Below, in pieces: positions 63 through 9,205 of a stretch of DNA of 33,246 nucleotides. Numbering within the stretch: the first letter of the stretch is position 1; each line of letters opens with the position of its first letter. Position numbers and translations under genes: made by a program. Below the pieces are notes generated by a model. That model was given only the letters and a program-made list of their open reading frames with translations, had not been told where the DNA came from and ran no database searches. Source of the DNA: a virus; IMG/VR virus record IMGVR_UViG_3300045912_000670, positions 1 to 33,246 of that record; one strand, given 5' to 3'.

Positions 63-533
63 GGGGCTTTCGCTGCCGCCATCCAGCCATTGAACAACCT
101 TGATGGCCGCGCCTGGTTGCTCGGTGGTATATCGCTTGGAAACCACTTGGTGTGCGATCTGGGAATCGTCCTTCCAAAGCAGGCCGGTCAGGGCATCCTC
201 GGTGGACCGCAGAAGCTTTGTGGCGTCGGGCTTGGTGACGTGGTGAATGGGGGCGCTTTCGCGCAGAAGGTGGGCCAGCTTGCCCGTGCGGAAGTGCCCC
301 TTCGGCCTGGGCATCAAGAAGACCACCTCAAGGAAAATCGTGCCTCGAAGGGGCTCCTTGGGCGCGAAGGGAAGCGCCGCCTGCAGCACGCTTTCCCGCC
401 AGGATTTGTTCCGCTTGGCGTCCTCCGCAATGACGACTCGGCCCGTCTTGGGGTTGACGAATCCGCGCTTGGAGCCCCCCGGCTGGGGGACTCCAAACAC
501 GCGGAAAGTGATCGTGGTTTGAATCGCGGTCAT
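54..533 (-). CDS. rusA: RusA-family Holliday junction resolvase
   Basis: A 159-aa protein of normal RusA size. The family hallmarks are visible: the N-terminal GVPQPGGSKR (residues 14-23), KPDATKL (101-107), EDALTG (112-117) and the acidic DDSQI (122-126). RusA enzymes resolve four-way junctions as dimers using a cluster of Asp residues; here the second Asp of the usual PDxD motif is Thr105, a variant I recall from other phage members, so activity is likely but not certain. The ATG overlaps the stop of the upstream gene by four bases (ATGA), placing it last in a recombination cassette with the YqaJ exonuclease. The stop codon lies within a control palindrome. Confidence 0.9.
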   Translation of the reverse strand: MTAIQTTITFRVFGVPQPGGSKRGFVNPKTGRVVIAEDAKRNKSWRESVLQAALPFAPKEPLRGTIFLEVVFLMPRPKGHFRTGKLAHLLRESAPIHHVTKPDATKLLRSTEDALTGLLWKDDSQIAHQVVSKRYTTEQPGAAIKVVQWLDGGSESPKP

Positions 534-1444
534 TCTTCTTGGCCCCCTTGCTCAGCCTGCTCAGTGACGGCCGGCGGAGCTGACGGCGGGGCCTTCGGTG
601 CGCCCTTGCTGGCCTTCGCTCGATTGAGCGCCGCAACTACCTGCTCGGTCTTCGAGCCGGCGGTGCTTGAGCCCTCGGGTTCGCGCGGGAACCACTGCTC
701 GACGGGGGCCATCCCGTCGCGAATAGACATATAGATCTTGCGGAGCATCACGAGCTCGGCCTCGGTGGTGGCCTCGAGAACGTGACCAAGGCGCTTGACG
801 ATCATCTCTTGCGTCACGCCCAAGTCCGCGAAGGCCGCCACCATCTTGCGAAGGCGGTCGATGATAGGCTCCTTACCGTCGCCATTGAGGGTCTCCTCGC
901 ACTGCGCAACGGCGGCCTCTACCACGTCTCCGGGAATTACTGATAGCAGGCAGGCCCGAAGACGCCGAGCACCCTGATTGGCAACGAGCTCGTAGATGTC
1001 GCGCGGATCGCTTAGCCGCGTCACGCCGTGCCGAGTGTGCCTCTCGTGCCTGACGGTAAAAACCTTCTGGCTGCGGTAGTTTGTTTCTGTATCCCAAGCG
1101 TAAGCCATCACAACGGATTCGCCGGGGCGCTGGTCGATCTCCACGATGCCAGCGTCTATATTGCCCCAGTTCTGCGCCAGGGCCTCAGCTAGACGTATAG
1201 ACGGCCCCGTCACGTTCTGGCCTCCGCGCGGATAAACGTACATCGCGCACTCGGCAAGCGAGCGGCGGCGGCAGGCGGCCATGATCCGGTTGTATGCCGC
1301 CACCTGGTCCCTCGGGCACTGCTTGGCCACAACCAGCATGGCCTGTACTTCCTGGGCCGCGCGCGATTGGGCCACCTGTACCTGTGCCGATGGCGCGAGC
1401 GCTGATGATGCGCGATCCTGCTCGAAGTCAACTTCGTAGCTCAT
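530..1444 (-). CDS. Phage recombination protein, probable single-strand annealing partner of YqaJ
   Basis: A 304-aa protein of a family I recognise from phage recombination cassettes: an N-terminal SRAAQEVQAML segment, PRDQVAAYNRIM, YPRGGQNVTGPSIRLAEA, then GARRLRACLLSVIPGDVV in the middle. The last 50 residues are Ala/Pro-rich and probably disordered. It lies between an alkaline-type exonuclease and a RusA resolvase, overlapping each by four bases, exactly where RecT, Erf or Redbeta analogues sit. Annealing activity is therefore inferred from context; I do not see a classical RecT or Erf signature. The start ATG is fixed by the ATGA overlap with the exonuclease stop. Confidence 0.65.
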   Translation of the reverse strand: MSYEVDFEQDRASSALAPSAQVQVAQSRAAQEVQAMLVVAKQCPRDQVAAYNRIMAACRRRSLAECAMYVYPRGGQNVTGPSIRLAEALAQNWGNIDAGIVEIDQRPGESVVMAYAWDTETNYRSQKVFTVRHERHTRHGVTRLSDPRDIYELVANQGARRLRACLLSVIPGDVVEAAVAQCEETLNGDGKEPIIDRLRKMVAAFADLGVTQEMIVKRLGHVLEATTEAELVMLRKIYMSIRDGMAPVEQWFPREPEGSSTAGSKTEQVVAALNRAKASKGAPKAPPSAPPAVTEQAEQGGQEE

Positions 1445-3862: not shown

Positions 3863-4219
3863 TTACAGCCACCGCCCGCCAATAGCCAGCAGTTCCATGC
3901 AATGATCTTCCCAAAGGGAAGCATTCTTCTCGTTGTCGGGTAGCTCCATTATCCGGTTAGCCTCCCTAATCCATGCGTGGCCGGTTTCAGAGTCGGGGAC
4001 ATAACAGCTCCCGTCATCATTCCCCCATTCAAGCATGCCGTCGGGGATTTTGGTCTCTTCCTCTTCATAGGGGAATAAGCAGAGAGGCAGCCCTGCCCGC
4101 AGCCATGCGAGAAATCGCTCGAATTCCTTGTCTTCTCTGGTGTCCATGTCTTCGCTGGTGTCCATGTCTTCGCTGGTGTCCATGTCTTCGCTGGTGTCCA
4201 TGTCTTCGCTGGTGTCCAT
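3863..4219 (-). CDS. Acidic protein with N-terminal MDTSED repeats
   Basis: A 118-aa acidic protein. The first 30 residues are five six-residue repeats, four MDTSED and one MDTRED, so five in-frame ATG codons are available; the first (4219) is chosen because AGGAG lies eight bases upstream. The remainder (KEFERFLAWLRAG, YEEEETKIPDGMLEW, RIMELPDNEKNAS, ending IGGRWL) has no motif I know. The strongly negative charge and small size would fit a DNA-mimic or inhibitor protein, but that is only a thought. Loss or gain of repeat units keeps the frame. Confidence 0.7.
   Translation of the reverse strand: MDTSEDMDTSEDMDTSEDMDTSEDMDTREDKEFERFLAWLRAGLPLCLFPYEEEETKIPDGMLEWGNDDGSCYVPDSETGHAWIREANRIMELPDNEKNASLWEDHCMELLAIGGRWL
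4130..4219 (-). repeat. 18-bp tandem repeat, five units, each beginning with ATG
   Basis: Five head-to-tail copies of an 18-bp unit (coding strand ATGGACACCAGCGAAGAC) start at the initiation codon of the 118-aa gene. Four units are identical and the last has one substitution (AGA for AGC). Near identity indicates recent slippage or recombination. Because the unit is a multiple of three, copy change alters only the length of the acidic N-terminus and the number of possible start codons. Confidence 0.9.
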
Positions 4220-4299
4220 TGTTTGGTCTCCTGTGGTGTGTGGTGTGGGTGGTGGGTTGCCCCGAGGGGGTTGCCCTCGGGGCGGTTTGGCGGCCAGTC
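4220..4299 (-). promoter_or_regulatory. Leader with 10-bp GC hairpin and CA-rich tract
   Basis: A perfect 10-bp stem (4259-4268 with 4274-4283, five-base loop) lies between the 58-aa gene and the MDTSED gene. On the coding strand it is followed by an unstructured tract made of CAC and ACC steps and then AGGAG. Without a U-run it does not look like an intrinsic terminator; a stable hairpin plus open ribosome site suggests post-transcriptional control or processing (inference). Confidence 0.5.
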
Positions 4300-4476
4300 T
4301 TAGCGCCAATCTTGCAAATACTTGGGAGCCCGGCGAATCTCGGCCTTGGTGGCCAGCTGCCGCCACTGCCAAGCCCAGTGGTTGCGCATCTGGGCGTCGC
4401 CGCGGAGATCCTCGCGCTTGGCGTTTTCGGCGTAAGCCTTCTTGATTTCCGCGATCTTGGTTGCGTTGAGCTTCAT
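4300..4476 (-). CDS. Small basic protein of unknown function
   Basis: A 58-aa ORF, MKLNATKIAEIKKAYAENAK onward, ending in PKYLQDWR. It has a well placed AGGAGAT ribosome site seven bases before the ATG at 4476. It is rich in Lys, Arg, Ala and Trp (NHWAWQWRQL) and predicted largely helical. I do not recognise a family. The next gene lies 80 bases downstream, after a strong hairpin. The quality of the ribosome site and the coding-like codon use support it as a real gene. Confidence 0.65.
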   Translation of the reverse strand: MKLNATKIAEIKKAYAENAKREDLRGDAQMRNHWAWQWRQLATKAEIRRAPKYLQDWR

Positions 4477-4959: not shown

Positions 4960-5214
4960 TCACACCCACCGATCTATATTGATCTTCCGAAACCACTCGC
5001 GCATCTCCTCTGGCACTGGCTCGCCGTCCTTTAGCGCGGCCGAGATAGAGTGGCACGCGTCGGCGGCGGATCGGTATTCGAGGCATCGGCGATGGTGATA
5101 GGCACCCTCGGCTGCGCGGCCCTGAGCGTTGGCGGCAAGCGACTGGGCTCGCGCATCCCCCGCCATCTCGCTGCAACAATGCGCTGCGGTTTCCAGTATG
5201 TCGTATAGGTTCAT
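4960..5214 (-). CDS. Small helical phage protein
   Basis: An 84-aa protein starting MNLYDILETAAHCCSEMAG, coupled by ATGA to the end of the methyltransferase frame. It is Ala-rich and probably all helical, with three Cys residues (two adjacent at positions 13-14) and two His near YHHRRC; these do not form a recognisable zinc motif. The C-terminus (PEEMREWFRKINIDRWV) is amphipathic. No family assignment. Position suggests co-translation with the methyltransferase. Confidence 0.7.
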   Translation of the reverse strand: MNLYDILETAAHCCSEMAGDARAQSLAANAQGRAAEGAYHHRRCLEYRSAADACHSISAALKDGEPVPEEMREWFRKINIDRWV

Positions 5215-5968
5215 GTCAGGTCTTTTTTTGATGCGTGTTCGCGCCTAAGGGTTAGCAGGTGCCATGCGAGTCGTACCACTGCTGGTACTTGTCCGTTTCC
5301 AAGGGCTTTAAATTGGTCCATCCGAACGGCCATCCCATCAGCCATTCTACAAAGTACGGGCTGAGGACTTGTCCGCTGCCAGGGATTGCAAGCTCCCGGC
5401 GAATAAGCTCGCCTGGAAGGCTGTCCCAAGCTCGGCACGACGGCGGGAAAGTCGAGTTCTTCGCGTCGTTGGCCGTTGGCGTAGGCCAAAATCCAGATGC
5501 GTTCTCTTTTGTGGGGAGCTCCGGCATGGTGCGCTCCCACAACTCCCCATTCCGCATTGTACCCCAACGTGGAAAGGTCGCCAAGGACTCGCTGAATTCC
5601 TCTAGAAACGAGAGCTGGGGAGTTCTCCACGAACACGAACCGGGGTCGAACCTCGCCAATGATGCGCGCCATTTCCCGCCAAAGGCCGCTTTGCTCTCCT
5701 TCGATTCCGGCGCCCTTTCCTGCAACGCTGATGTCCTGGCACGGGAATCCGCCAGAGACGACATCCACGAGTCCAGCCCACGGTCGCCCGTCAAAGGTTC
5801 GCACATCGTCCCAGATTGGGAGGGTTCAAGCATTCCGTCGTTTTGACGCTGGAGGAGAATTTGCCGGCAATAGGGGTCAATCTCGACGGCACAGACTGTT
5901 CTCCAGCCGAGCAACCGACCGCCGAGAATTCCGCCTCCAGCGCCTGCGAAAAGTGCCAACTCATTCAT
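5211..5968 (-). CDS. DNA cytosine-C5 methyltransferase, interrupted by a one-base frame break
   Basis: The protein would transfer methyl groups from SAM to cytosine C5. The start at 5968 (GGAGGT upstream) gives motif I, ALFAGAGGGILGG, and the AVEID acidic motif, in one frame up to about 5825. The remaining motifs lie in the -1 frame: SGGFPCQDIS with the catalytic Cys, FVFVENSP, HKRERIWIL and the terminal LGNGQVP. Reading one C more in the CCC at about 5823-5825 restores a continuous LEPLPIWDDV join as expected in homologues. About 252 aa in total. Either a deletion from a C run has broken the gene, or a -1 shift or sequence error explains it. No partner endonuclease is seen. Confidence 0.75.
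5252..5968 (-). CDS. Motif-I-containing ORF whose second half overlaps the methyltransferase in another frame
   Basis: Continuing in the start frame gives a 238-aa protein. After motif I, its second half reads SLADSRARTSALQERAPES, RFDPGSCSWRTPQLSF, FPRWGTMRNGELWER, SGFWPTPTANDAKN and YFVEWLMGWPFGWTNLK. These segments match, from memory, a widespread phage protein family annotated with DNA methylases; yet the same DNA in the other frame encodes methyltransferase motifs IV to X. Here that family-like half is fused in frame to the SAM-binding start. Whether this ORF is translated or is a shadow maintained by constraint on the methyltransferase cannot be decided by eye. Confidence 0.5.
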   Translation of the reverse strand: MNELALFAGAGGGILGGRLLGWRTVCAVEIDPYCRQILLQRQNDGMLEPSQSGTMCEPLTGDRGLDSWMSSLADSRARTSALQERAPESKESKAAFGGKWRASLARFDPGSCSWRTPQLSFLEEFSESLATFPRWGTMRNGELWERTMPELPTKENASGFWPTPTANDAKNSTFPPSCRAWDSLPGELIRRELAIPGSGQVLSPYFVEWLMGWPFGWTNLKPLETDKYQQWYDSHGTC

Positions 5969-6365
5969 TGAGACCTCCAAGCGCCTTGCGGGCCGCGAGC
6001 ATTGCCGCTGCCCACTCCGCGGGATCGTCACCGGCCTCCGTCTCGTTGACTTCCACCAGCCCCGACAGCGCCGCCTTCAGTTCCTCCACGCGCGCCACCT
6101 CCTGTGCAAACAACGGCCTCGTGGCCTCGCGCAAAAGGTGCTCGCCGGCCAGTTGCGCAGCGGCCAGGGTGCGGAACCGGTACTCCTCAAATTCAATCGT
6201 TAGGGGCCGCAGAATAAAGTCTCGCTCTCGCCCTGCGGGGATTTCGACAAACGGCCGAACCATTCCGGGTATTTGGGAAGCCCAGTTTTGCAACCTCCAT
6301 GGCAGGATCGGCTTCTGGCCTGCCGCGGCCCTGCGCTCGAACTCTTCAACGTCGATCTTGGTCAT
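5961..6365 (-). CDS. Phage protein of unknown function
   Basis: A 134-aa ORF starting MTKIDVEEFERRAAAGQKPI at 6365, where ATGA overlaps the stop of the 272-aa gene. Longer in-frame starts exist but would lie deep inside the upstream gene. It has a Glu/Arg-rich middle (EIPAGRERDFILRPLTIEFEEYRF) followed by long Ala/Leu/Glu helices. No known family is recognised. Its stop overlaps the methyltransferase start by eight bases, so translation of the methyltransferase is probably coupled to it. Confidence 0.7.
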   Translation of the reverse strand: MTKIDVEEFERRAAAGQKPILPWRLQNWASQIPGMVRPFVEIPAGRERDFILRPLTIEFEEYRFRTLAAAQLAGEHLLREATRPLFAQEVARVEELKAALSGLVEVNETEAGDDPAEWAAAMLAARKALGGLNE

Positions 6366-7180
6366 TTGCTTGGCTCCTCGCCGCAAAGCTCGTTCGTCTC
6401 CGGGCTGTTTAAGTACAGTTCGCCCGGAAAGCACTCATCCGTGTCGTCGTTCTCGTCTTGCTGCCACCAGATTATGAAATTGGACGCGAGGCGATGTTTT
6501 GTAATCCCGCGCACCGTGCCCTGTGCCCAGCCGTCGCGGTCCTCCACGCCGTGGTAGTAGTCGTCACCGTCGATGTGGCGCCACGCTCGCAGACCCGGGT
6601 AAATCGGGTGCCCGTCGGCGGTTTGTGGTAGAGCCGCCGCCGCCGTCTCCATGGCAGCGTATCGCGCTACCATCTGACTCATATAATCAGGCGCACGGCC
6701 CCGGGAAACCTCCCATTGAGCAAACTCAATTTCCCTGTCCGCCACCTCCGCCACCGGCAATTTCGCAAGCACATCGCGCAGTCGATCCTGCATGCGGTTG
6801 TGATCGTGCGCCAGCGAGGACAGCGCGTGCTGCGTCCTCGCCAAACGCTTGGTCAGCGTGGCCAGCTCGACCTGCAGGTCGTGCCCGCTGTCGTATTCAT
6901 CCAACGCCTTTGAAAGTTCGTTCTTGAGGGCTCGCACGCCGATCCGAAGGCACTCGGCGCACAGATGGATTTCGCTGTCATGCGACGATCCGCCGTTTCG
7001 GTAAATCACAGCTCGCACAATGAGGTCGTTCGCGATTTGCGCAGGGCGGTCATCGTGGTTGTCGGTCCGCGGAACGTAAACGGTAGACAAATTAGCCTCC
7101 CACGATGATCGCTGCTGCTCCAGCCCTCGCGGTCTTCCGCACGTCCAGCACCTGGTGTTTCTGCTTGGCCGCTCTTGCAT
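6362..7180 (-). CDS. Protein with Cys-pair (zinc-binding-like) N-terminus and coiled coil
   Basis: A 272-aa protein. CWTC (residues 11-14) and CAEC about 65 residues later form two CxxC pairs that could build one zinc ribbon around an inserted segment. A coiled coil follows (VELATLTKRLARTQHALSSL and MQDRLRDVLAKL). The C-terminal half holds HIDGDDYYHGVEDRDGW and NFIIWWQQDENDDTDECF. I cannot name the family. It follows a double-hairpin leader identical in plan to those of the DUF6948 genes, and is the first gene downstream of that array, so it may be under the same control. Confidence 0.7.
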   Translation of the reverse strand: MQERPSRNTRCWTCGRPRGLEQQRSSWEANLSTVYVPRTDNHDDRPAQIANDLIVRAVIYRNGGSSHDSEIHLCAECLRIGVRALKNELSKALDEYDSGHDLQVELATLTKRLARTQHALSSLAHDHNRMQDRLRDVLAKLPVAEVADREIEFAQWEVSRGRAPDYMSQMVARYAAMETAAAALPQTADGHPIYPGLRAWRHIDGDDYYHGVEDRDGWAQGTVRGITKHRLASNFIIWWQQDENDDTDECFPGELYLNSPETNELCGEEPSK

Positions 7181-7263
7181 GATCCCTGTCCTATTCTGCG
7201 GGGGATGCCCGCTGTCGGGGGTTGCGCCGGGTTAAGTTTTCTCTCTTCCCGGCGCAGTTTCCT
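7181..7263 (-). promoter_or_regulatory. Double-hairpin leader, copy 1 of the array
   Basis: An 8-bp perfect stem (7224-7231 with 7248-7255) is followed on the coding strand by AACCCCCGACA, a 5-bp stem (7198-7202 with 7208-7212), then AGAATAGGA and the ATG at 7180. The sequence is almost identical to 7850-7931 and similar to 8698-8780, so it was duplicated with the surrounding cassette. No TATAAT box is seen inside. Confidence 0.6.
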
Positions 7264-7557
7264 TTAGCTGTAGCCGGCGCCGTCGCCGTACCCGTAGCCG
7301 TCGCCGTAGCCGGAGCCGTCGCCGGCGCCGTAGCCGGTGCCGTCGCCGGCGCCGGAGCCGTCGCCGGTGCCGCCGCCAAAGCCGTATCCGGCTCCGTATC
7401 CGTCGCTGTAGCCGTATCCGTCGCTGTAGCCGTAGCCGAAGCCGCTGCCGTCGCCGTAGCCGTTGCCGTAGCCGGAGCCGTAGCCGTAGCCGGAACCCGA
7501 ACCGTAGCCAGAACCGGCACCGCAGCCGGCACCGTCGCCGTCGCCGTCAGACAACAT
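7264..7557 (-). CDS. Low-complexity (Gly-X)n protein, 97 aa
   Basis: Starts MLSDGDGDGAG and alternates Gly with Tyr, Asp, Ser, Phe, Ala, Asn or Thr almost to the end (GAGYS). The DNA is a degenerate GGCNNC hexamer array, so slippage keeps the frame. The ATG lies in the last codons of the DUF6948-like gene (11-nt overlap), so its translation is probably coupled. No signal peptide or membrane segment. Function unknown; the composition resembles Gly/Tyr-rich disordered proteins that self-associate. That the Tyr/Asp/Ser choice is kept at the X positions argues for a coding role. Confidence 0.7.
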   Translation of the reverse strand: MLSDGDGDGAGCGAGSGYGSGSGYGYGSGYGNGYGDGSGFGYGYSDGYGYSDGYGAGYGFGGGTGDGSGAGDGTGYGAGDGSGYGDGYGYGDGAGYS

Positions 7558-7849
7558 GGTTCTTAGCTCCTCGGATGGATGCCTCGGCCTCCGCCGAGGT
7601 TAGAATAATCTCGCAGTTTTCGGTGAGGTGGATTCGAGGCACCGGCACTGTGATTTTAGAATCCTCGGCGATCCCGTATACTGCGACCTCCGAGAGCGAA
7701 ACGCCGCCGCCTTCCGCCCGCCAGCGCCACAGCCGGCGCGCTTCAGCGAGAATGCATTCCCTCCCTTGGTGGGCCTCCAAAACGCCGGCGTGGACACCTG
7801 CGTCCCTGCAACGTACAATGACGTATTTTCCTACCATTCCGTTGTTCAT
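7547..7849 (-). CDS. DUF6948-like protein, copy 2
   Basis: A 100-aa protein, MNNGMVGKYVIVRCRDAGVH, then GVLEAHQGRECIL, ARRLWRWRAEGGGVSLSEVA and a C-terminal EASIRGAKNHVV. From memory this matches the DUF6948 family of small phage proteins with a KYVIVRxxxAGV...G...ARRxWxW...SLS pattern; function unknown. About 90 % identical to copy 1 at 8395-8697. The start has AGGACA upstream after a double-hairpin leader. It overlaps the next (Gly-X)n gene by 11 nt. An in-frame upstream extension would run backwards through the previous Gly-X repeats and is not credible. Confidence 0.75.
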   Translation of the reverse strand: MNNGMVGKYVIVRCRDAGVHAGVLEAHQGRECILAEARRLWRWRAEGGGVSLSEVAVYGIAEDSKITVPVPRIHLTENCEIILTSAEAEASIRGAKNHVV

Positions 7850-7931
7850 GATCGTTGTCCTGTTCTGCGGGGATGCCCGCTGTCGGGGGTTGCGCCGGGT
7901 TAAGTTTTCTCTCTTCCCGGCGCAGTTTCCT
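7850..7931 (-). promoter_or_regulatory. Double-hairpin leader, copy 2 of the array
   Basis: Nearly the same sequence as 7181-7263: an outer GCGCCGGG/CCCGGCGC stem, the CGACA link, a GCGGG/CCCGC stem and AGAACAGGA before the start of the DUF6948-like gene. It immediately follows the stop of the 157-aa (Gly-X)n gene. Confidence 0.6.
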
Positions 7932-8405
7932 TTAGCTGTAGCAGGTGCCGCTTCCGTTCCCGGCTCCGGTGCCGTAGCCGGAGCCGTCGCCGTAGCCGAA
8001 GCCGGAGCCGGATTCGTTGCCGTGCCCGTAGCCGGCACCGTCGCCGTAACCGAAGCCGTCGCCGGCGCCGGAGTCGGAGCCGGCTCCATCACCGGTGCCG
8101 TTGCCGTCACCGGTGCCGCCGCCAAAGCCGTATCCGGCTCCGTATCCGGCTCCGTATCCGGCTCCGTATCCGTTGTCGTAGCCGTAGCCGAAGCCGTAGC
8201 CGTAGCCGTCGCCGTTGCCGTTGCCGAAGCCGTCGCCGTCGCCGTAGCCATCGCCGAAGCCGTCGCCGTCGCCGTAGCCATCGCCGAAGCCGTCGCCGTT
8301 GCCGTAGCCGAAGCCGGAGCCGTCGCCGTCGCCGAAGCCGTTGCCGAAGCCGTCGCCGTCGCCGAAGCCGTAGCCAAAGCCGGAGCCGTCGCCGTCAGAC
8401 AACAT
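7932..8405 (-). CDS. Low-complexity (Gly-X)n protein, 157 aa
   Basis: The longest of the three. It starts MLSDGDGSGFGYGFGDGDG and keeps Gly at every second residue, with Asp, Tyr, Phe, Asn, Ser, Ala or Thr between; a stretch of repeated GAGY units and a GFGGGTGDG segment are shared with the 97-aa copy. It ends GSGTCYS. Blocks of 36-48 bp repeat almost exactly (for example around 8220-8300), indicating recent expansion. It overlaps the DUF6948-like gene by 11 nt (8395-8405). Function unknown; self-association or a structural role is only a suggestion. Confidence 0.7.
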   Translation of the reverse strand: MLSDGDGSGFGYGFGDGDGFGNGFGDGDGSGFGYGNGDGFGDGYGDGDGFGDGYGDGDGFGNGNGDGYGYGFGYGYDNGYGAGYGAGYGAGYGFGGGTGDGNGTGDGAGSDSGAGDGFGYGDGAGYGHGNESGSGFGYGDGSGYGTGAGNGSGTCYS

Positions 8406-8697
8406 GGTTCTTGGCTCCTCGGATAGATGCCTCGGCCGCCGCCGAGGCCGGAATAATCTCGCAGTTTTCGGTCAGGTGGATTCGAGGCACCGGCACCGTG
8501 ATTTTAGACTCGGGGGCGATCCCGTATACTGCGACCTCCGAGAGCGAAACGCCGCCGCCTTCCGCCCGCCAGCGCCACAGCCGGCGCGCTTCTGTGAGGA
8601 CGCACTCTCGGCCCTCGTGTGCCTCCAGCACACCGGCATGCACGCCGGCGTCGCGGCACCGAACAATAACGTATTTTCCTACCATTCCGTTGTTCAT
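8395..8697 (-). CDS. DUF6948-like protein, copy 1
   Basis: A 100-aa paralogue of the copy at 7547-7849: MNNGMVGKYVIVRCRDAGVH, ARRLWRWRAEGGGVSLSEVA, KITVPVPRIHLTENCEI and the common tail EASIRGAKNHVV. Differences cluster in a few positions (EAHEGRECVLTEA against EAHQGRECILAEA). Preceded by a double-hairpin leader and AAAAGGA. The 3' end holds a CCTCGGC/GCCGAGG hairpin within the shared tail. The family is small and uncharacterised; I recall members in diverse phages, often beside Gly-rich ORFs. Confidence 0.75.
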   Translation of the reverse strand: MNNGMVGKYVIVRCRDAGVHAGVLEAHEGRECVLTEARRLWRWRAEGGGVSLSEVAVYGIAPESKITVPVPRIHLTENCEIIPASAAAEASIRGAKNHVV

Positions 8698-8780
8698 GAT
8701 CGTTGTCCTTTTCTGCGGGGTTAGCCCGCTGTCGGGGGTTGCGCCGGGTTAAGTTTTCCCTCTCCCCGGCGCGTTTTGGT
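8698..8780 (-). promoter_or_regulatory. Double-hairpin leader, copy 3 of the array (diverged)
   Basis: Same plan as the other two, with small changes: GCGCCGGG pairs with CCCGGCGC, then a GCGGG/CCCGC stem with a TAAC loop, then AGAAAAGGA before the ATG at 8697. The substitutions lie mainly in loops and spacers while the stems are kept, which is mild evidence for a selected RNA structure. Confidence 0.55.
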
Positions 8781-8882
8781 TTAGCCGTAACCGAAGCCGT
8801 CGCCGAAGCCGGAGCCGTAGCCGGAGTCAAAACCGTAGCCAGAGCCGGCACCAGAGCCGTAGCCGTCGCCGTCAGACAACAT
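8781..8882 (-). CDS. Short (Gly-X)n protein, 33 aa
   Basis: Starts MLSDGDGYGSGAGSG at 8882 inside the last codons of the XRE regulator gene and ends in GDGFGYG before a TAA. It is the shortest member of the (Gly-X)n set and shows the same start and 11-nt overlap. It may be a contracted copy of the longer ORFs or the seed from which they expanded. Confidence 0.55.
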   Translation of the reverse strand: MLSDGDGYGSGAGSGYGFDSGYGSGFGDGFGYG

Positions 8883-9117
8883 GGTTCTTGGCTCCTCTGA
8901 TCGAAGCTTCGGCCGCCGCCGAGGGCGGCGCGGTATCTTCGGCGAGCTCCAGCAGCGCCTTCTCGAGGCGCTTAAGGGTCTCGACTCCTGGGTTCAACGT
9001 TCGGCCGTCCGCGATTTTGCGCAGGCCTTCAACTGTCAGCCCGCTTGCTTTTGCAAGCTTTGAAAGATTCCCGCGGCGATTGCGGATCGCTGCCAGTAGC
9101 TTGGATTTTGTGTCCAT
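8872..9117 (-). CDS. XRE-type helix-turn-helix regulator with array-derived C-terminal tail
   Basis: An 81-aa protein. The start MDTKSKLLAAIRN at 9117 is set by AAAGGAG seven bases upstream. LSKLAKASGLTVEGLRKIADG is a typical lambda-Cro/XRE helix-turn-helix, followed by TLKRLEKALLELA. The last 15 residues (AAAEASIRGAKNHVV) are identical to the tail of the DUF6948-like copy 1 and unlike a normal XRE C-terminus, so the gene is a chimera. Two TTTCAAC-type palindromes lie just upstream, as expected for autoregulation. It heads the array and probably controls the array and the genes that follow. Confidence 0.85.
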   Translation of the reverse strand: MDTKSKLLAAIRNRRGNLSKLAKASGLTVEGLRKIADGRTLNPGVETLKRLEKALLELAEDTAPPSAAAEASIRGAKNHVV

Positions 9118-9140
9118 AGAGATCTCCTTTCGCCCCAAAG

Positions 9141-9194
9141 CTTTTCAACTTTAGTTGCAAAGGAGCAATCGGAATTTCAACGGAAGTTGAAAAG
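9141..9194. promoter_or_regulatory. Two operator-like palindromes, TTTCAAC-N4-GTTGAAA
   Basis: A perfect palindrome lies at 9175-9192 (TTTCAAC GGAA GTTGAAA) and a near-perfect one at 9143-9161 (right arm with one inserted C). Their centres are 32 bp apart, close to three helical turns, and the outer arms also form an exact 11-bp inverted repeat (9141-9151 with 9184-9194). They lie between the tail gene and the XRE gene, directly upstream of the latter, so they are probably its operators. No clear -10 box is seen. The same half-site occurs at 31663 and 31692. Confidence 0.65.
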
Positions 9195-9205
9195 CGCCCG
9201 GGGCC

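Follow-up and report, generated by a model that had tools for sequence, protein, structure and literature searches.

DUF6948 and a downstream (Gly-X)n protein form a conserved two-gene phage module whose globular member has a predicted Sm-like fold

In the 33,246-base stretch of IMG/VR virus record IMGVR_UViG_3300045912_000670 analysed here (the window), three genes share the same C-terminal tail, EASIRGAKNHVV, and each runs into an open reading frame (ORF) encoding a protein in which glycine strictly alternates with another residue, referred to as (Gly-X)n. The question raised by this locus is whether the two genes form a unit that is retained by phages while the repeat expands and contracts, as an earlier note on this DNA had proposed, and what such a pair might do. 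The genes concerned, all of which lie on the minus strand, are as follows.

8872-9117, minus strand: helix-turn-helix (HTH_3-like) regulator P0003, 81 amino acids, ending in EASIRGAKNHVV and not DUF6948 (Pfam HTH_3 E 2e-4; PHROG transcriptional repressor E 1e-6).
8781-8882, minus strand: (Gly-X)n ORF 1, 33 amino acids, starting MLSDGDG and overlapping the HTH gene by 11 nucleotides (nt).
8395-8697, minus strand: DUF6948 copy A (P0001), 100 amino acids (Pfam PF22253 E 1.6e-29; Sm/LSm-like barrel in the AlphaFold2 model).
7932-8405, minus strand: (Gly-X)n ORF 2, 157 amino acids.
7547-7849, minus strand: DUF6948 copy B (P0002), 100 amino acids, 92% identical to copy A (Pfam PF22253 E 1.2e-29).
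7264-7557, minus strand: (Gly-X)n ORF 3, 97 amino acids.

The start of each (Gly-X)n ORF overlaps its tail-bearing gene by 11 nt, with the upstream stop codon inside the overlap, and all three begin MLSDGDG; the shared tail, the overlaps, the start residues and the ORF lengths are thus as the earlier note described them. Its designation of the cassettes as DUF6948 cassettes holds for two of the three upstream genes, P0001 and P0002, which match PF22253 at E values of about 1e-29 (102 bits against a cut-off of 27, covering profile positions 1-85 of 85), but not for the third. P0003 is HTH_3-like, its match (E 2e-4) falling just below the curated cut-off, and the tail is the sole part that it has in common with the DUF6948 genes; this gene seems to have acquired the cassette end through recombination.

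The spread of the pair was examined with DUF6948 relatives gathered from phage records, IMG/VR and bacterial genomes. Two profile scans of IMG/VR each gave more than 500 relatives, the best 80 being kept from each, and the bacterial genomes contributed 39 loci, whose host groups were taken from record titles and are tentative because many of these records are metagenome-assembled genomes. A (Gly-X)n ORF lies directly behind DUF6948 in 174 of the 179 genes for which 150 nt or more of downstream sequence is available, a proportion that is not a count of independent events since some of the loci are near-identical. By comparison, only 16 arrays were present on the same strand elsewhere in 855 kb of the same loci, and these derive from five loci, three of which are copies of one sequence. 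The co-occurrence check suggested by the earlier note therefore favours the pair, and DUF6948 genes lacking the repeat ORF, which that note had regarded as counting against a functional module, are rare. The five exceptions comprise a masked Gly-rich sequence (L109), two degenerate Gly-rich sequences (L125 and L291), one locus in which the repeat is nearly lost (L330) and one in which it stands in front of the gene (L251). The reciprocal search, conducted with (Gly-X)n DNA, revealed DUF6948 upstream of 45 of 56 Ser/Tyr/Asp-type arrays with visible upstream sequence. The pair is found in phages or prophages of more than 10 bacterial phyla, the tentative hosts of the bacterial-genome loci including Alpha-, Beta- and Gammaproteobacteria, Bacillota, Bacteroidota, Planctomycetes, Verrucomicrobia, Chlamydiae, Omnitrophota, Actinobacteria, Armatimonadetes and Patescibacteria groups, amongst others. 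As expected of a phage gene, DUF6948 is rare in bacterial genomes (1 of 398, 2 of 398 and 2 of 296, each sample including one genome known to carry it). Complete isolate genomes also carry (Gly-X)n arrays annotated as genes. Clearly, then, the coupled pair is a conserved two-gene phage module, the members of which have been retained together in evolution.

The same reverse search identified a second class of array, of Tyr/Asn/Asp type, with DUF6948 upstream in only 3 of 30 cases. The upstream position is occupied here by a family of small proteins containing '..VVVVDRGWIFAGDVTRENGRIRLSRAVHVFKW..' or '..IVVLQRGWVYIGRFERTGNDCRLYNAYNIRTWGTTKGL..', referred to as the W/Q type. Members at loci L340-L439 have sequences of the form VVVVDRGWIFAGDV.. 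or IVVLQRGWIYIG.. and a (Gly-X)n partner of their own. Pfam holds no family specific to these proteins, but they are homologous to DUF6948 (hhalign E 3.5e-6, probability 87.6, 77 columns), and at least 257 IMG/VR relatives exist for one W/Q subtype. A (Gly-X)n ORF is located downstream of 77 of 78 and 19 of 19 W/Q-type genes with downstream sequence (96 of 97 in total), an isolate example being gp37-gp38 of Eggerthella phage PMBT5. About half of the X residues in these arrays are Tyr, with Asp and Asn also, and the W-type proteins have an added 'RPVG' lead and a basic end, for example GTVNNSRTRK. In DUF6948-type arrays X is Ser (36%), Tyr (30%) or Asp (25%), such that the flavour of the (Gly-X)n protein is particular to each upstream subfamily.

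Several features of the arrays bear on whether the repeat is maintained as protein. A single Gly codon averages 94% within a locus, a uniformity that is the mark of slippage, and the dominant codon varies between loci (GGC in 147, GGT in 18, GGG in 16 and GGA in 9), as does the third base of the X codons, which is C or T, with the peptide unchanged. The common X codons are TCN for Ser, TAY for Tyr and GAY for Asp; Ala GCN codons are depleted six-fold, with 95 observed against 625 expected. No more than three residues separate the stop codon from the last repeat in 68 of 89 closed ORFs of the first set. In every one of 12 close pairs the difference in array length is a multiple of 6 nt, one pair having 198 versus 330 nt with identical flanks. 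The cultured Pectobacterium phages Taid and Abuela have DUF6948 genes that are 99.7% identical, followed by (Gly-X)n ORFs of 258 and 222 nt that differ in repeat order. Frameshifts, the frequent occurrence of which the earlier note had also considered damaging, are not indicated in 151 of 156 closed arrays. Since synonymous hexamers encode the same peptide, lengths change only in 6-nt steps and the stop lies at the end of the array, selection acts on the encoded (Gly-X)n protein; the peptide and frame are not unconstrained as in a non-coding DNA repeat. The proposal that the two genes are maintained together as the repeat lengthens and shortens is thus strongly supported, both by the co-occurrence counts and by the 6-nt length steps. 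The encoded chains have a mean charge of -7.6, with Lys and Arg near zero, as against a mean of +1.4 for DUF6948. By X composition alone, DUF6948-type arrays fit the phase-separation type of sequence, that is, disordered, with aromatic stickers and Gly/Ser spacers. Profile searches of named families gave only weak low-complexity matches (TrAA12, serine-rich). A survey of low-complexity regions in prokaryotes and phages reports that aromatic residues are under-represented in them (PMC6821194), which makes Tyr-rich (Gly-X)n chains unusual.

A new C-terminal domain of ∼155 amino acids is joined to the (Gly-X)n ORF in phages and prophages of gut and rumen (L263:4561-5037, L126:5615-6079 and L128:5558-6022, plus ∼40 loci). 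This domain carries the motif WHHxLTGSC, in which LTGSC is near-invariant, and has an invariant Asp, two His and a Trp. Its model has a predicted local distance difference test score (pLDDT) of 95.5; Pfam has no family for it, a fold search of the PDB found nothing convincing (best Z 4.8, E 0.16), and no sequence relationship to DUF6948 was detectable. (Gly-X)n sequence occurs also as an in-cis C-terminal extension of an 'AGACxxGV' domain without a Pfam entry (L151, L157, L175, L197 and L217) and of DUF7666 (L201).

The manner in which the two genes are joined was examined at the level of the coupling sites. The sequence GAGGAGCYAAGAACCATGTTGTCTGA, which contains a Shine-Dalgarno-like GAGGAG followed by the (Gly-X)n ATG and the stop of the upstream gene, occurs exactly three times in the window and never in shuffled sequence (0 expected by chance). 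A double-hairpin leader follows each (Gly-X)n ORF, as the earlier note had observed, the three copies having ∼94% mean column identity, with folding energies of -31.5 to -33.8 kcal/mol and z scores of -3.9 to -4.7.

8872-8897, minus strand: coupling site 1, exact GAGGAGCYAAGAACCATGTTGTCTGA match.
8395-8420, minus strand: coupling site 2, exact GAGGAGCYAAGAACCATGTTGTCTGA match.
7547-7572, minus strand: coupling site 3, exact GAGGAGCYAAGAACCATGTTGTCTGA match.
8698-8780, minus strand: double-hairpin leader copy 1, the ATG of the following gene being preceded by AGGA (-33.2 kcal/mol, z -4.3).
7850-7931, minus strand: double-hairpin leader copy 2 (-31.5 kcal/mol, z -4.7).
7181-7263, minus strand: double-hairpin leader copy 3, 5' of an unrelated gene of 272 amino acids at 6362-7180 (-33.8 kcal/mol, z -3.9).

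Given the repeated coupling site and the near-identical leaders between cassettes, the cassette is duplicated within the window. Neither the constant overlap and start residues nor the leader, all described in the earlier note, are supported as general properties, and they belong to the window: in relatives the genes overlap by ∼8-19 nt, with a mode of 13, or merely touch, 11 nt being the window value. The leader was not taken as a general part of the module, having been seen only in the duplicated cassette of the window, though relatives were not searched systematically for it. Shine-Dalgarno-like sites are present 5' of the (Gly-X)n ATG in 40% of cases versus 12% of control windows. A programmed frameshift fusion was rejected as a general mechanism, because the (Gly-X)n frame is +1 relative to DUF6948 in some phages and +2 in others. 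The ATG overlaps the upstream stop either way; coupling by overlap is therefore the common factor, and translation of the (Gly-X)n ORF is probably coupled to that of the upstream gene in vivo. At locus L160 there is a natural in-frame DUF6948-(Gly-X)n fusion, next to a further copy whose array stands alone.

The structure of DUF6948 was predicted with AlphaFold2 from an alignment of 100 sequences, drawn from the window and the loci, yielding a model with a pLDDT of 96.8 and a predicted template-modelling score of 0.88. The model has the Sm fold, a strongly bent small barrel of five strands in Sm proteins. Every one of the 50 PDB matches listed by Foldseek belongs to the Sm, LSm or SmAP proteins (best E 2.8e-3, probability 1.00), and VIA superposes the model on yeast SmF with a Z of 8.6 (1.8 Å over 65 residues). 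Conserved positions include R13, R38, R39, W41, W43 and E80. A sequence search of the PDB with DUF6948 returned no match.

The module is usually located in the phage recombination and replication region. The commonest families amongst 115 neighbouring ORFs are YqaJ, RecT, AAA_24 and PD-(D/E)XK nucleases, with DnaG and DnaB present also, in a tally that covers the surroundings of the module alone. In PMBT5 the neighbourhood includes single-stranded DNA-binding protein (SSB) and a helicase loader. In the window, we take the minus-strand gene at 1441-2361 to be a YqaJ-type exonuclease and that at 530-1444 (minus strand) to be possibly a single-stranded DNA (ssDNA)-annealing protein, and on this reading the window phage has recombination genes too.

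The best explanation of these data, which is held tentatively, is that the module comprises an Sm-like nucleic-acid-binding protein and a separately encoded, acidic, Tyr-rich disordered tail that serve in phage recombination or replication. The first gene, DUF6948 or its W/Q-type relatives, would give rise to a small Sm/LSm-like β-barrel protein, and the second, its translation started by coupling at the end of the first, to a disordered acidic (Gly-X)n protein, which in some lineages would have gained a C-terminal domain or basic tail. The Sm-like protein, probably oligomeric, would bind single-stranded nucleic acid via R13, R38, R39, W41 and W43, close to the recombination and replication machinery of the phage. 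The (Gly-X)n chain would act in trans as the low-complexity tail of this protein, occupying the same surface and linking particles, and so both tuning binding and driving multivalent assembly. Precedents exist in the acidic C-terminal domain (CTD) of Hfq, which occupies the rim used by nucleic acid and displaces the latter (PMC5606850), in the action of Hfq on ssDNA in recombination (PMC10392684), and in the condensation of SSB, which is driven by its Gly-rich linker (PMC12143593); the Hfq CTD and the SSB linker are the reason for proposing (Gly-X)n as an in-trans tail. Nucleic acid binding, contact between the partner proteins and assembly are each steps that we infer. The Tyr density may favour multivalent assembly and the acidity regulation, or both may apply; condensation, by analogy, is plausible, and an Sm-like partner makes condensates or assemblies more so.

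A number of observations weigh against this explanation. Small barrels have many functions, and the VIA Z of 8.6 exceeds the level that the tool calls 'common' by just a moderate margin. An hhalign comparison of DUF6948 with six Sm/Hfq sequences was not significant (probability 5%, E 0.007), and the LSM Pfam model has no match in the window. On reading of the alignment, the set of RNA contacts made up of Sm1 Asp/Asn and Sm2 Arg-Gly is not present as such: Sm2 Arg-Gly reads Thr-Glu, the β4-β5 turn being LTE in the consensus, and the canonical Sm RNA contacts may therefore be absent. Since the profile comparison is not significant and Sm2 Arg-Gly is absent, DUF6948 is described as Sm-like by predicted fold, for which the strength of the match is moderate, and its membership of the Sm superfamily is putative. 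Furthermore, the charges of the partners do not covary across loci (r -0.11), the natural fusion occurs in one locus among several hundred, and the presence of (Gly-X)n chains on unrelated domains (DUF7666 and the AGAC type) indicates that the role of the chain may be more general.

An acidic chain with almost no Lys or Arg could instead be a purely regulatory mimic of nucleic acid that occupies the Arg/Trp surface of the Sm-like protein in competition with RNA or ssDNA, and recycles this protein without formation of condensates. The acidic CTD of Hfq operates in this way (PMC5606850), and the overlapping ORFs would place both proteins on a single message. However, ∼30% Tyr (50% in the W type), a strict alternation of Gly and 15-87 repeats are all features that a mimic could do without, and the uncorrelated partner charges are as unhelpful here; this alternative is considered unlikely. 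A comparably low probability attaches to the pair being an anti-host accessory, for example in counter-defence, in which the barrel would bind a protein of the host or a signal molecule, with the chain acting as decoy, multivalent display or shield. Its patchy presence among phages of many phyla, its rarity in bacterial genomes, its position in an early gene region and the rapid turnover of the repeat would all be accommodated. The neighbours, though, are recombination and replication genes as opposed to known counter-defence genes, and a PADLOC scan returned nothing relevant, a weak objection given that the library covers defence and not counter-defence.

Strict Gly alternation also resembles silk-like repeats, and the (Gly-X)n protein might have a mechanical or structural role as a polymer, in the form of a fibre, gel or spacer that is perhaps carried within the particle, with DUF6948 as chaperone or cap; the fused domain of many gut and rumen phages and the basic tail of the W type could be read in the same sense. 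This is quite improbable, however, as the module usually lies amid recombination and replication genes and not virion genes, and the arrays, being Asp-rich and Ala-poor, are unlike silk. The idea that the arrays are DNA-level repeats, arising from slippage, recombination or assembly artefacts and open by chance, is largely refuted and scarcely credible. A hexamer array does keep several frames open, and many metagenome contigs terminate within one, but differing synonymous hexamers specify one peptide, the stop lies right behind the array, Shine-Dalgarno-like sites are enriched and the arrays are annotated as genes in complete isolate genomes. A non-coding repeat or assembly artefact was accordingly rejected on the 6-nt steps, the Ala depletion and the cultured Taid/Abuela pair. 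The tentative reading of an Sm-like protein with an in-trans tail can be extended to a broader and rather doubtful form, in which phages at large would possess split (ribo)nucleoprotein modules, an Sm-like superfamily having its low-complexity domain as a coupled gene of matching flavour and, while the phage recombines and replicates, assembling on its single-stranded nucleic acid into condensates or filaments.

Further observations concern individual genomes. The (Gly-X)n ORF of Iodobacter phage PhiPLPE (L004:1161-1409) was missed by annotation, and that of PMBT5, gp38 (L444:1794-2120), is labelled 'adsorption protein', probably a misannotation. Neisseria gonorrhoeae NZ_CP119142.1 (L249, ∼533.5 kb) has DUF6948 at three places, the one examined having a (Gly-X)n ORF behind it that is absent from the gene table; the record is filed as a plasmid but, at 2.17 Mb, is evidently a chromosome. 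Elsewhere in the window, an inverted repeat at 9140-9195, just upstream of the HTH gene, has 21-nt arms that are 86% complementary and spaced by 14 nt, and is a candidate operator for autoregulation of that gene. A cytosine methyltransferase (PHROG DNA methyltransferase E 1e-19) at 5211-6031 on the minus strand is seemingly split across overlapping frames (5252-6031 and 5211-5804), possibly by a frameshift, and the ORF at 3863-4372 (minus strand) contains five MDTSED-like repeats in tandem.

Hundreds of phages, then, retain a gene for a nearly pure Gly/Tyr/Ser/Asp/Asn protein, almost always behind one small-barrel superfamily, in a widespread module that gene callers have in part missed (PhiPLPE) or mislabelled (PMBT5 gp38). 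For DUF6948 this work supplies a predicted fold and a connection with a related family that has no name. In these simple viruses a globular and a low-complexity part are naturally split into a conserved pair, of which the disordered member can be deleted, extended or swapped with the folded one untouched. Such a pair would permit a direct genetic test of the role of a disordered protein whose composition is conserved.

With regard to known systems, no paper mentioning DUF6948 was found, and no description of Gly-rich phage repeats of the (Gly-X)n kind was found in a literature search that did not extend to subscription papers; DUF6948 is a Pfam family without assigned function, and neither its coupling to (Gly-X)n nor its Sm-like fold was found described. 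The likeness to Sm, LSm and Hfq proteins lies in the predicted barrel, which superposes on Sm proteins, in an Sm1-like pattern discerned by eye (VIVR..G....G.L..), and in the disordered tails borne by Hfq and LSm4. However, DUF6948 has no significant sequence homology to these proteins and a helical insert before strand 4, its ring is putative, and in the phage module the tail is a separate protein. Bacterial SSB similarly combines a small barrel with a Gly-rich, disordered chain of acidic ending and adjoins recombination genes, but has an OB (oligonucleotide/oligosaccharide-binding) rather than an Sm fold, is a single polypeptide, and has a linker without strict Gly alternation or such a density of Tyr. 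The Tyr-Gly-Ser low-complexity domains of FUS type are Gly-Tyr-Gly and Ser-rich with few positive charges, and are conserved in composition and not in order; the (Gly-X)n proteins differ in being phage-encoded, strictly alternating, Asp-rich and separate small proteins. The module does not belong to any characterised system; our best guess is that it works in the manner of the Hfq-CTD and SSB-linker systems, with the tail split off as a gene of its own.

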